A stretch of DNA of 28,359 bases. Origin: a virus. The notes beneath the pieces are model-generated. The model was not told the origin of the DNA. It made no database searches and saw only the letters and a list, made by a program, of their open reading frames with translations. The DNA is taken from the IMG/VR virus record IMGVR_UViG_3300042321_001640, positions 1 through 28,359 of that record; one strand, given 5' to 3'. Positions 5,510 through 16,444 of this stretch are shown piece by piece; positions within the stretch are counted from its first letter, which is position 1, and each line of letters begins with the position of its first letter. Position numbers and translations under genes: made by a program.

Positions 5510-6898
5510 TTAAACTGGTCTTGCCATCGTTGAAGAAGATGGTTTAATACCAGTTCCCACTTTTTTAGGTCCTACAAGTTTTGGACCTACAATCTTAGGT
5601 CCAACCTTTGCCTGACCAACACCACGACCAGGAAGTTTCTGTGCAGTTGCTGCTTGTGGATTAATTCCAAGTTGTCTCTGATATTGTTGAGTTCCTCTAA
5701 GAGCAGTTCTATATTCTTGTTTTGCTGCCTGGGATTCTGCTGCTTTAGAATATCTACCAATATTCAACGCTCTTCCAACTCTTGCTCCAAGACTTGTATC
5801 TCTAGATTGAATTGAAGGTCTTGCAAGATAAACTGCCCTTCCTCCTTTATATGCCAAATCCCCAACAACTTGTCTACCAGTTTTTGGATCACGAACTAAT
5901 TGAGTGGAGGAAAGTTTTGCAGTTTTTCCACCAGAAGTAAGAGTTCCTGCTTGTCTATTAACCGTTGTAGGTCCTCCTACACCTGTAAGAGCGGATCCTT
6001 GTCTTGTACCATAGGCACCAGATTGTGATGCAACTTGTCTTGCTCCTCTGGTATCAACTGTTTGTTGTGCTTTTTGTAGTCCAGATCCTCGATTGATTAA
6101 TCCACTTCTCTGCTGAAACTTATCAAATCCAATTGATCTTGATACTGCTTGTCTTGCTGGGCGTGTTTTATTTGCTGCCCAGTCATATGCTTTTCCTGAT
6201 GTTTCTGCTCCCACCAATCCTGCAGTGATTGCAGCGGCACCTTTAACAATTGGTGGTCCCGGAACCATGGCACCAAATTTTGCTGCAGCAGCATATCCTG
6301 CTAGTTGTGAAGCAGCACCACCTGCTGCTCTTGCTCTAGATTGTCCAGTATCTCTTCTATCTTTATAATCTAGTGCAGCACCAGCAACGTTTGCTGCAGG
6401 TCCGACAGCATTACCTAAACGTGAACGAAGTCCTGGACCATTTGTTGCTGCTGTGGGGGGTTTTGCTGTAGGTGCTGGAACGTTACTGGTGGGTGGTTTT
6501 GGTGGTGGTGGAGTAGATGCCTTAGGTTGCTTAGGAGGTGCCTGAGTGGTCTTAGGTTCCGCTTTAGGTGATGGTGGAGTAGATGCCTTAGGTTGTTGTT
6601 TAGGAGGAGTTTGAGAGGTTCCAGAAGGTTGTTTAGGCGGTTTTTGTGTGGTTCCAGTTCCTCGTACATCTTGCCCAGAAACCTTAGTATTTTTAACTTC
6701 AAATCCAGATGGAGGTTTACCAGTCTTCATATATCCTTTCATAAATTCTTTGGCAGCAGCAGTTGTTTTTTCACTACTATTCCTTTCGTAAAATCTTCCA
6801 CCTTTAGTAAATTCTTTTGGATTTGCATTCATCCAATCTTGCCATGCTTTTTGCGCTTTTACAGCATCTTCATTCAAAAACTCGCTAAAAGTCTTCAT
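5510..6898 (-). CDS. Large low-complexity virion protein with T4-like capsid-targeting N-terminus (462 aa)
   Basis: It starts at ATG 6898 behind a perfect TATAAATA. The N-terminus MKTFSEFLNE/D resembles the capsid-targeting sequence of T4 internal proteins (MKTYQEFIAE) and ends in L-x-E, the consensus cut by prohead protease gp21. Residues of about 75-155 are a Pro/Lys/Thr/Gln linker with repeated units (PPKQ, PKASTPP). Residues of about 160-240 are Ala/Gly-rich with weakly hydrophobic stretches such as AAITAGLVGAETSGKAYDWA, as in proteins that interact with membranes. The C-terminal half is Arg/Gln/Gly-rich, ending in repeated VGPK units (KIVGPKLVGPKKVG). No catalytic motif is visible. The likely role is an internal head protein ejected with the DNA; this is inferred from the N-terminus and composition. 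Confidence 0.78.
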   Translation of the reverse strand: MKTFSEFLNEDAVKAQKAWQDWMNANPKEFTKGGRFYERNSSEKTTAAAKEFMKGYMKTGKPPSGFEVKNTKVSGQDVRGTGTTQKPPKQPSGTSQTPPKQQPKASTPPSPKAEPKTTQAPPKQPKASTPPPPKPPTSNVPAPTAKPPTAATNGPGLRSRLGNAVGPAANVAGAALDYKDRRDTGQSRARAAGGAASQLAGYAAAAKFGAMVPGPPIVKGAAAITAGLVGAETSGKAYDWAANKTRPARQAVSRSIGFDKFQQRSGLINRGSGLQKAQQTVDTRGARQVASQSGAYGTRQGSALTGVGGPTTVNRQAGTLTSGGKTAKLSSTQLVRDPKTGRQVVGDLAYKGGRAVYLARPSIQSRDTSLGARVGRALNIGRYSKAAESQAAKQEYRTALRGTQQYQRQLGINPQAATAQKLPGRGVGQAKVGPKIVGPKLVGPKKVGTGIKPSSSTMARPV

Positions 6899-6918: not shown

Positions 6919-6926
6919 TATTTATA
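6919..6926 (-). promoter_or_regulatory. T4-type late promoter (TATAAATA)
   Basis: A perfect TATAAATA on the minus strand ends 21 bases before the ATG at 6898, directly after the T-tract of the nrd operon terminator. Confidence 0.72.
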
Positions 6927-13587: not shown

Positions 13588-15153
13588 TCAATCAAATCTT
13601 GAGTGCATCATGTCGTCATTTGCTGCTAGTGATCTTCTTCTTCTTCTTTCTGCAACGTTATCTGCCGGAGTCACTGCTGGTCTTTGAGGTTCTACAGGAC
13701 CTGTACGATCTTTTTTTACTCCTCTTCCTTGTTTATGCTGAGCAACAGTCCCACCACTTCTAGTCATAAATCCTGTTTCATTTTGACCTCTTACAATCAT
13801 CAAAGCTGGATCTGGTTTACGTCTTGGTTTACCTTCTTCCTTCCTTTGTCTTGTTCTTTCATCAATTATTTCACCTTCTGGTTCATAAGATGCTGCCATC
13901 ACAATAGGATTTTTTACTCCCATTGATTGCAATTTACTAGCAATCAAACTTTTGGTTGTTGGAAGTGATCTTTTATCAATTTCCTTTTTATTATTTTCAC
14001 TACCACATTCAGATTCTTCTTTCATTGCTTGCTTACGAATTGAAGCAAAATAAACTTTTTTTCCATTTTCTGTACCATATTGGTCTTGCATTGATGCTTT
14101 CATGCCAGAAGAGTCATACTTTTTCTTTAGTTTTTTTTCTTTTGTTTTTGCTGCTTTTGTCATCTTTTTTTCCTGAAGCATTCCAAGAAACTTAGAATAT
14201 CCAGTTTCAGAAATTACTTCACCACTCAATTCAGTATGTGCCAACACAGTATTGTTTGGATTTACTGTAATTTTATTTTTTTTATTCGCAGGTAAAATAT
14301 CTATTTGAACATTATTTGAATCTTGATTCAAATATTCTGAAGCATCAGTTTGAGGTAAATTTGACATTTTTGATACTTCACCAATAAATTCTTCCTTTAC
14401 ACTTGAAGTATCTTTTCCGTCAGGTTTTCCACCTCTTCTACGTTGAATTGCATTATGAACTGCTCCAGCATGTTCCTTTGCACCACTTTCAACTTTACCA
14501 TCACCATCATAATCTTTCTTTGCTCTTTTACCAAGAACTTCGGCAGTTTTTTCACCTTTAGTTCTTTCACCTTCATATGGATCTCCATATTCGGTCATTT
14601 CAACCTCTAGTCCTCGTGCTCTAAGTTGACTAATTTTTTCACGAGTTGCATATCTAACATAAGTAACACTATTTTCCTTATCAGTGACTCTTACCTTATA
14701 CTTTTTAGATTCTGAGGTTTGATTTGCGTCTTCCTCTAATCTACTCTTAATTTCATCAATATCAATGACTTCATTTTTCTTTTCTACAAATACTTTATAA
14801 AGTGCTTTTGCCATTGAACTGGATGCAGATTCTTTCATATCCATACTAAAGTCTTCTGCTTGCATTCCCTCAGATCCACCAAAAAGTTTTTTTCTTACTT
14901 CCGATTTTTCTGCTTCGCCCATTGAACTATTTTGCATAAACTGAGAGTATGCAGATCTCAATGGAATATTTTCTCTTCTTGCACGATAACGAATATCATA
15001 TACTGCTTGTCTAATTTTTTGTTCTGGCGTTTTTTCTCCCCCCTTATCATCATCTCTACCAGAATCTCTACTTTCTGGTTTCTTATTTTGGGAAGATAAT
15101 TGTGCCTGGGGATGACTTCTTGCAGGAAGATCTTCAGCAATATGTTTTTTCAT
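13588..15153 (-). CDS. Large charged virion-like protein with a Ca-binding-like loop (521 aa)
   Basis: It starts at ATG 15153. The N-terminus MKKHIAE/D ends in I-x-E and could be a short gp21-type cleavage site. Most of the protein is Lys/Glu/Arg-rich and low in hydrophobics. At 214-222 it carries DYDGDGKVE, a DxDxDGxxE loop like those of EF-hand or dockerin sites, followed by SGAKEHAGAVHNAIQRRRGG. A later element, YGTENGKKVYFASIRKQ, resembles a segment I know from other marine phage virion proteins. The C-terminus is Arg/Pro-rich. No enzyme motif is seen. It is probably a head-associated or internal protein. A GATAAATA box precedes it inside the end of the upstream gene. Confidence 0.76.
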   Translation of the reverse strand: MKKHIAEDLPARSHPQAQLSSQNKKPESRDSGRDDDKGGEKTPEQKIRQAVYDIRYRARRENIPLRSAYSQFMQNSSMGEAEKSEVRKKLFGGSEGMQAEDFSMDMKESASSSMAKALYKVFVEKKNEVIDIDEIKSRLEEDANQTSESKKYKVRVTDKENSVTYVRYATREKISQLRARGLEVEMTEYGDPYEGERTKGEKTAEVLGKRAKKDYDGDGKVESGAKEHAGAVHNAIQRRRGGKPDGKDTSSVKEEFIGEVSKMSNLPQTDASEYLNQDSNNVQIDILPANKKNKITVNPNNTVLAHTELSGEVISETGYSKFLGMLQEKKMTKAAKTKEKKLKKKYDSSGMKASMQDQYGTENGKKVYFASIRKQAMKEESECGSENNKKEIDKRSLPTTKSLIASKLQSMGVKNPIVMAASYEPEGEIIDERTRQRKEEGKPRRKPDPALMIVRGQNETGFMTRSGGTVAQHKQGRGVKKDRTGPVEPQRPAVTPADNVAERRRRRSLAANDDMMHSRFD

Positions 15154-15170: not shown

Positions 15171-16397
15171 TTACTTTTTCCTATTTTTATTTATCATATT
15201 TACACTATAAGGTTTTCCAGGAAGTCTCATCAATTTGGACATATACTTTTCAGAGTATGATTCCTTAACATCTTTGATCCAGGATTTAAACATCATACCA
15301 CCTTCAGATACGCAAATTAAATAATTTGTTCCTCTACGAGTTATCTTACCTATCATTCCAGTATTTAAATTTTCTACAAAAGTTCCAAGTTTAAAAATAT
15401 TTCCATCAATATAATTTTCTCTTAAAGATTGTAAATCATATTCTGGAGCAATTTCCCAAATATTATATCCTTCTTGTTGCATTTCCAAAATTCCCATTCC
15501 TTGACGAACCAAATCAAAAAGTTGCAACGCATCTTTATTTTTAATTTTAGGAGGAAGTCCAGAACGAAATGTCATAAAATCACCTTCAGCAGCAGCAAGT
15601 CTAAGTCTAGATGAAGATAATCCTTCTACATTTTTAGTATCTGGATCCTCATTTTCCAAAGGCAATACTTCAATTACATCAAACTGATATAGTTGCCCAT
15701 TATAATTATTTGCCAATTTTTCAAATTCTTTTGATCTATCAGATCCACATACAATCCTTACATTAGTATAACCATCATTATGAACCTTTTTTAAAACATC
15801 AAAGATTGATATAAAATTTGCATCATTTACAATTCTTTCACTATGATCTGGAAAAATCTTTCTCATAAATGATATTTTGGTATCAGGATCTAATGGATTC
15901 TTTTTTGCATCATAACTTCTAGATGGTACAACAATATAATCCCCATCCTCTTCCATTGCAATCATTGCAGCAGTATCCATCAATTGCTGATGCCCCACGG
16001 TTGGAGGATTGAAACGACCAAAAGCAATTGTTAGAGTTCCTTTAGTTTTTGGAACTGCTGGAGGAGTTATAACTGGTTCTTGTTGAGGAACAGGTTCTTC
16101 TTGAGGAACAGGTTCTTGCTGAACTGCCTGCTGTTCTGGTGGAATCTGAGGTGTTTGTTGAGTAGGATAAGAAGATCCCAATGGGATATTTTTTTCAAAT
16201 TCAGATTGAGATGGATCTTTTCCACCAATAATTTGCCTTTTATTAAAATACTTTAATTGTCCACTGACAGTTTTTGCTTCAAACTCGCCAGTGGCTCTAT
16301 TATACCATCCACCATGGCCATCACCAACAAGTCCAAGTCTTTTTGCTTGAACTGATGCTGAGGTTGCTTCAGTTATAAACTGGAGAAATGTTTTCAT
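15171..16397 (-). CDS. Nucleotidyltransferase with T4-like capsid-targeting N-terminus (408 aa)
   Basis: It starts at ATG 16397. The N-terminus MKTFLQFITE/A closely matches the T4 internal-protein targeting peptide (MKTYQEFIAE/A) and ends in the I-x-E cleavage pattern. Next is a small module with DGHGGWYNRATGEFEAKT (26-43), then a Pro/Gln/Glu linker (80-115). A cytidylyltransferase-like Rossmann domain (about 120-275) follows, with IAFGRFNPPTVGHQQL, a variant of the HxGH motif, and GLSSSRLRLA, equivalent to the SSTxxR motif. The C-terminal module (about 335-378) contains NTGMIGKITRRGTNYLICVS. The enzyme transfers a nucleotide; the substrate (NMN-like or other) is unknown. The N-terminus suggests it is packed in the head and injected, which is inference. 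Confidence 0.83.
   Translation of the reverse strand: MKTFLQFITEATSASVQAKRLGLVGDGHGGWYNRATGEFEAKTVSGQLKYFNKRQIIGGKDPSQSEFEKNIPLGSSYPTQQTPQIPPEQQAVQQEPVPQEEPVPQQEPVITPPAVPKTKGTLTIAFGRFNPPTVGHQQLMDTAAMIAMEEDGDYIVVPSRSYDAKKNPLDPDTKISFMRKIFPDHSERIVNDANFISIFDVLKKVHNDGYTNVRIVCGSDRSKEFEKLANNYNGQLYQFDVIEVLPLENEDPDTKNVEGLSSSRLRLAAAEGDFMTFRSGLPPKIKNKDALQLFDLVRQGMGILEMQQEGYNIWEIAPEYDLQSLRENYIDGNIFKLGTFVENLNTGMIGKITRRGTNYLICVSEGGMMFKSWIKDVKESYSEKYMSKLMRLPGKPYSVNMINKNRKK
15188..15195 (-). promoter_or_regulatory. Late promoter candidate (GATAAATA)
   Basis: GATAAATA on the minus strand lies 34 bases before the ATG at 15153, inside the last codons of the nucleotidyltransferase gene. One mismatch from consensus. 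Confidence 0.38.
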
Positions 16398-16436: not shown

Positions 16437-16444
16437 TATTTATT
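16437..16444 (-). promoter_or_regulatory. Late promoter candidate (AATAAATA)
   Basis: AATAAATA on the minus strand lies 39 bases before the ATG at 16397, in a very AT-rich gap. One mismatch from consensus. Confidence 0.4.

Follow-up and report, generated by a model that had tools for sequence, protein, structure and literature searches.

A T4-type N-terminal sequence probably loads an adenylyltransferase-like protein into the head of a cyanomyovirus

Enzymes have repeatedly been seen in purified cyanophage virions, in studies unable to tell cargo from contamination. Here we report that a 408-aa adenylyltransferase-like protein encoded in the window (the whole 28,359-base stretch of viral DNA that was analysed) is probably loaded into the phage head by a T4-type tag. 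Loading into the head, as originally predicted, is well supported by conserved residues of the capsid-targeting sequence (CTS), mass spectrometry (MS) of four relatives, an enrichment in the S-CREM2 proteome and a late promoter-like box. The presence of the family in virions was already known; the loading mechanism, the occurrence of the tag on several unrelated enzymes and a second module behind it appear to be new. A recognisable tag makes the choice between cargo and contamination testable from sequence and existing MS.

Results

The gene order of the window (nrdB, nrdA, primase, mazG, gp41, uvsX, gp43, clamp loader) is that of a T4-like cyanomyovirus and is identical to that of S-SZBM1. 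The 408-aa gene lies between mazG and nrdAB, in synteny with S-SZBM1 and S-SM1. Its product matches Pfam CTP_transf_like (1.3e-5) and phrog_395 (9e-91), with homology spanning the enzyme and C-terminal domains, and has relatives in 534 phage records, chiefly from phages that infect Synechococcus or Prochlorococcus. Among isolates S-SRM01 comes closest (72% identity); identity is 48% to S-SCSM1 and 35% to the S-CREM2 homologue. The annotation of the S-PM2 protein, T4-LIKE GC 190, links the family to T4-GC190 as defined by Sullivan et al. 2010, where it is counted among the core genes of cyanophages (PMC3037559). Some family members are labelled NrdB or ribonucleotide reductase A (S-MbCM25, S-MbCM6, metaG-MbCM1 and S-B64 records), probably a propagated misannotation. 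That the downstream gene (13588-15153) corresponds to S-SZBM1_139 was considered and dropped, the two showing no similarity. The gene, its parts and its upstream box are as follows.

15171-16397, minus strand: adenylyl/cytidylyltransferase-like ORF of the cyanophage virion-associated family, 408 aa, ATG start (T4-GC190 / phrog_395)
16437-16444, minus strand: AATAAATA, late promoter-like -10 box of the T4 type, 47 nt upstream of the ATG
16368-16397, minus strand: predicted T4-type CTS MKTFLQFITE, aa 1-10, with a gp21 cut expected after E10 (match to T4 IPII/IPIII; constrained positions)
16227-16364, minus strand: GHG/GYG module, aa 12-57, a small beta module (HMM matches, alignment, AF2 model)
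16053-16202, minus strand: low-complexity P/Q/E-rich linker, aa 66-115 (sequence; pLDDT about 30-45)
15480-16043, minus strand: nucleotidyltransferase domain, aa 119-306, PPAT/NMNAT-type fold (pLDDT mostly 75-93; Foldseek; VIA-align)
15990-16019, minus strand: motif I GRFNPPTVGH, a TxGH variant of HxGH (G127-T133 and H136 invariant in the alignment)
15600-15617, minus strand: motif II SSSRLR, ISSTxxR-like (S261, S263, R264 and R266 invariant or nearly so)
15267-15404, minus strand: small beta domain at the C-terminus, aa 332-377 (phrog_4808 and phrog_22379 match here as well)

The likeness of the N-terminus to T4 internal proteins and its I-x-E ending, both part of the original prediction, were borne out by comparison with the T4 sequences (AF158101). 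The window protein begins MKTFLQFITEA and both IPII and IPIII begin MKTYQEFIAEA, with 7 of 11 residues identical and F/Y at position 4, and the propeptide of IPI (N-terminus MKTFKEFTSTTTPVSTITEA) ends in ITE/A, as in the window protein. In T4 IPIII, residues 4 and 7 govern targeting and residues 8 and 10 processing, and gp21 cuts after L/I-x-E (PMC9026906). These same four positions are the constrained ones in both clades that we aligned, 81 relatives around the window protein (64 distinct) and 80 around S-SM1 (58 distinct), while positions 3 and 9 vary. Among the 64 distinct window-clade relatives, K2, F7 and E10 never change, position 4 is F or Y, position 8 is I, L or V (V in one only), A11 is present in 63 and positions 3, 5, 6 and 9 vary freely; in the 58 distinct proteins of the S-SM1 clade, F4, F7, L8, E10 and A11 are invariant and position 9 is the most variable. 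Within a limited set of literature, in which only PMC9026906 brings capsid targeting and cyanophages together, and on another matter, we found no report of a CTS on T4-GC190 proteins or of the module described below.

Such N-termini are rarely produced by chance. The strict pattern MKx[FY]xxF[IL]xEA occurred in none of 438,000 shuffled N-termini, and a looser pattern, expected 0.0075 times per 219-gene proteome, was observed four times in S-CREM2 (gp6, gp13, gp14 and gp154), in each case on a protein detected in virions. The gp23 major capsid proteins carry a similar predicted cut site near residue 55 (SFLSE/A in S-SRM01, LLTE/A in S-CREM2, ILTE/A in S-SZBM1). In tagged proteins, the predicted cleavage would yield peptides such as AAVDQPGANPTGPGSNETPAMK (S-CREM2 gp12) and AAESGASVQAK (S-SCSM1) in place of intact spanning ones such as FASFMAEAAVDQPGANPTGPGSNETPAMK or NFSSFLTEADEK; we saw no N-terminal peptide that shows a cut.

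Virion data come from relatives of the window phage. Published MS identified a T4-GC190 “putative citidylyltransferase” in virions of S-SM1 (PMC3037559) and further family members in those of S-SZBM1 (PMC9146016), S-SCSM1 (PMC9602691) and S-CREM2 (PMC10665884), all four cultured phages. All four of these homologues have CTS starts: MKKFSAFLNEA (S-SM1), MRFRQFIIEA (S-SZBM1), MKSFLQFLKEA (S-SCSM1) and MKNFSSFLTEA (S-CREM2). Abundance looks low, with an emPAI in S-SZBM1 of 0.26 for the family member versus 27.6 for the capsid protein (PMC9146016), which as a rough estimate may correspond to one copy for every hundred or so capsid proteins. Co-purification of abundant proteins is possible according to the authors of the S-CREM2 (PMC10665884) and S-SCSM1 (PMC9602691) studies. 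In S-SCSM1, each of the four adjacent genes 89-92 (L191 39-5197), the NMNAT-annotated homologue among them, bears a virion protein label.

A CTS score matrix built from the first 11 residues of the relatives together with T4 was used to rank the complete set of 219 annotated proteins of S-CREM2. The seven highest scorers, gp154 (cytidylyltransferase, of the family from which the matrix was built), gp14 (kinase), gp13, gp123, gp209, gp136 and gp6 (SAM lyase), are all among the 52 proteins detected by MS, and five of them carry the tag at the N-terminus; gp123 and gp209 owe their scores to matches elsewhere in the sequence, probably by chance. A score of at least 5 was reached by 7/52 detected and 2/167 undetected proteins (Fisher p = 7e-4). 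A further virion protein, gp12, has FASFMAEA internally, beyond its N-terminus. In S-SZBM1, one of three motif-bearing coding sequences was detected, the cytidylyltransferase only, which gives no independent enrichment; S-SZBM1_191 and S-SZBM1_192 have good CTS starts and were undetected in virions, so the sequence does not guarantee detection.

A late promoter-like box is common in the family, ATAAATA occurring within 150 nt upstream of the gene in 67 of the 81 relatives. The window as a whole has 17 copies of ATAAATA on the coding strand versus one on the other (6.5 expected). It also encodes a second protein with a CTS-like start, preceded by a box of its own:

5510-6898, minus strand: second CTS-bearing ORF, 462 aa, MKTFSEFLNED, predicted cut after E10 (N-terminal homologues in L049, L051 and L018)
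6919-6926, minus strand: TATAAATA, late promoter-like box just upstream of the 462-aa ORF

The product of the second ORF is repetitive and basic, and the syntenic gene of S-SRM01 (176324-177667) has the N-terminus MKSFSQFLEES. Similar starts were noted elsewhere: in S-CRM01 (L188 3249-7827) the adjacent genes g131-g127, the last a cytidyltransferase, all have CTS-like starts and may be a cargo cluster, and phrog_1742-type proteins of about 100 aa begin MKSFKxFxSES (S-SRM01 L092 26582-26890; S-SZBM1_191, undetected in virions).

Directly behind the CTS of the 408-aa protein lies the GHG/GYG module, whose sequence (residues ~12-57) begins RLGLVGDGHGGWYNRATGEFEAKT. The AF2 model gives it a helix continuing from the tag and then 4-5 short strands (pLDDT about 80). 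A profile HMM of the module, built without the CTS residues, found only two S-CREM2 proteins, the gp14 kinase (two copies, 1.1e-17) and the “Cas9”-annotated gp12 (2e-12), the next best match being at 0.21; both are in the virion protein list of that phage (PMC10665884). The “Cas9” annotation of gp12 is unsupported by Pfam, NCBIfam or PADLOC, and we keep it as a label only. The module is also present in the S-CRM01 kinase and in g128 of that phage, with a CTS-like stretch ahead of each, and a protein kinase has been reported from S-CRM01 virions. In ACG-2014f, a 796-aa protein to which no function is assigned (L190 2489-4879) starts with the stretch LLSFLSEAA, behind which comes the module (E 1.3e-15); its gene lies near a Dam methylase, and it has no Pfam match. 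The small lysine-rich gp220 of the Pseudomonas jumbo phage Lu11 (L189 2866-3339) has the module (E 5e-12) without a CTS.

The module was not found in the 50-100 kb region of T4 that was searched, which includes all three internal proteins. Alone, it matched no solved structure in Foldseek (best E 1.4), and whole-protein scans placed it in no Pfam family; these negatives do not establish a new fold. Scans of viral contigs with the S-CREM2 kinase and the Cas9-annotated protein returned no relatives having those peptide patterns, and breadth was therefore judged from the phage collection.

The original prediction also named the motifs GRFNPPTVGH and SSSRLR, which are present at aa 127-136 and aa 261-266, and took the protein for a cytidylyltransferase-fold enzyme. 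The nucleotidyltransferase fold and its motifs stand (most relatives have SASR/KxR or SSSRxR as their second motif), but the closest folds are those of adenylyltransferases. Neither the protein nor its alignment matched any PDB entry by sequence, so the fold was assigned from the AF2 model. By Foldseek and VIA-align, phosphopantetheine (PPAT) and NMN/NaMN (NMNAT) adenylyltransferases are nearest to the model and tied, at Z 12-13; every top-ranked fold match is an adenylyltransferase, and a family outside that list may still fit. On this modelled fold, adenylyltransferase-like describes the enzyme better than cytidylyltransferase, and because the PPAT and NMNAT structures tie, the fold does not decide the substrate. 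The best NCBIfam match, nadR_NMN_Atrans (7e-5), is far under its cut-off; with 22 bits against a curated cut-off of 341 for TIGR01526 and 17 against 112 for TIGR00482, the protein is not classed as an NMNAT. A PADLOC scan of the protein gave no match.

Some homologues lack the tag. S-PM2p139 (L103 1880-3052) has a DUF6267-like tail fused to the enzyme domain and has lost the tag, the module and the C-terminal domain; the reported virion proteins of S-PM2 do not include GC190 (PMC3037559). Seven homologues of T4 proteins known to be structural also went undetected in that proteome (PMC3037559), so the contrast is suggestive only. The homologues in RaK2, GAP32 and Paride are bare enzyme domains without a CTS, indicating that the enzyme also exists in untagged form.

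Discussion

These observations are consistent with a model in which the 408-aa gene would be transcribed late and residues 1-10 of its product would act as a T4-type CTS, binding the protein to the prohead core until the prohead protease gp21 cuts, as predicted, after E10. The GHG/GYG module would stay on the mature protein as part of a cargo tag common to other packaged enzymes, and may serve to retain the protein in the head, to bind DNA or to help it through the tail. The packaged adenylyltransferase would then pass into the host together with the DNA and be at work before phage gene expression begins.

As in T4 IPI, IPII and IPIII, the proposed tag consists of ten N-terminal residues with F/Y4, F7, I/L8 and E10 followed by A, and the predicted gp21 cut and late promoter-like box are likewise shared with the internal proteins. 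Unlike them, the window cargo is a multi-domain enzyme with a second module after the tag. If injection is true, a closer parallel in function would be the T4 ADP-ribosyltransferase Alt, an enzyme that is loaded into the prohead and injected, although both cleavage and injection have been demonstrated for Alt and are predicted for the window protein, and we claim no kinship between the enzyme domains. The protein belongs to the same family as the T4-GC190 “cytitidyltransferase” or NMNAT of S-SM1, S-SZBM1, S-SCSM1 and S-CREM2. It resembles the NMNAT and PPAT enzymes NadM, NadD and CoaD in fold and in its TxGH/HxGH and SxSxxR-type motifs, but differs from them in its extra N- and C-terminal domains and in a domain identity of about 12-20%.

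The likeness of the enzyme to both NMN/NaMN and phosphopantetheine adenylyltransferases leads us to name NMN/NaMN as a possible substrate, though a tentative one. A narrower form of the head-loading reading, in which an injected NMN/NaMN adenylyltransferase would sustain host NAD+ early, for example against NAD-depleting defences, seems to us somewhat unlikely: the NMNAT-type fold, the sub-threshold nadR_NMN_Atrans match and the metabolic role proposed by the S-SCSM1 authors (PMC9602691) are offset by the tie with PPAT, by an emPAI implying few copies per virion and by the empty PADLOC scan.

The tag might instead mark a component of the prohead core or of head morphogenesis, as IPIII may be in T4, with an activity that matters in the producing cell or never, and with delivery incidental. 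A part for IPIII in head assembly has been discussed (PMC9026906), the gene belongs to the cyanophage core and its neighbours in S-SCSM1 encode virion proteins, all of which would suit such a role. Both catalytic motifs are conserved, however, the S-PM2 homologue retains its enzyme domain though the tag is lost, and the other tagged proteins are very different enzymes (SAM lyase, kinase); we therefore consider this explanation unlikely.

That an abundant late intracellular enzyme merely co-purifies with virions, its N-terminus being a conserved helix that serves some other purpose and resembles T4 by coincidence, is improbable, since although the proteomics authors themselves raised contamination, the emPAI is low and jumbo phages have CTS-less homologues, the family recurs in four independent virion proteomes, its conserved positions are exactly those of T4 targeting and processing, shuffling failed to produce the strict pattern, and CTS scores are enriched among MS-detected proteins, with the same tag on unrelated virion enzymes.

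Loading of the 408-aa protein into the head by its T4-type tag thus remains our preferred reading. The evidence is evenly balanced on a broader proposal, that in cyanomyoviruses a two-part tag, a T4-type CTS and a retained GHG/GYG module, loads varying unrelated enzymes, sometimes encoded side by side, and delivers them at the start of infection. Its cargo set would comprise the adenylyltransferase, the protein kinase, the Cas9-annotated protein and the 796-aa protein, with the SAM lyase carrying the CTS alone. Such a tagged set may act on Prochlorococcus and Synechococcus ahead of any phage gene expression.
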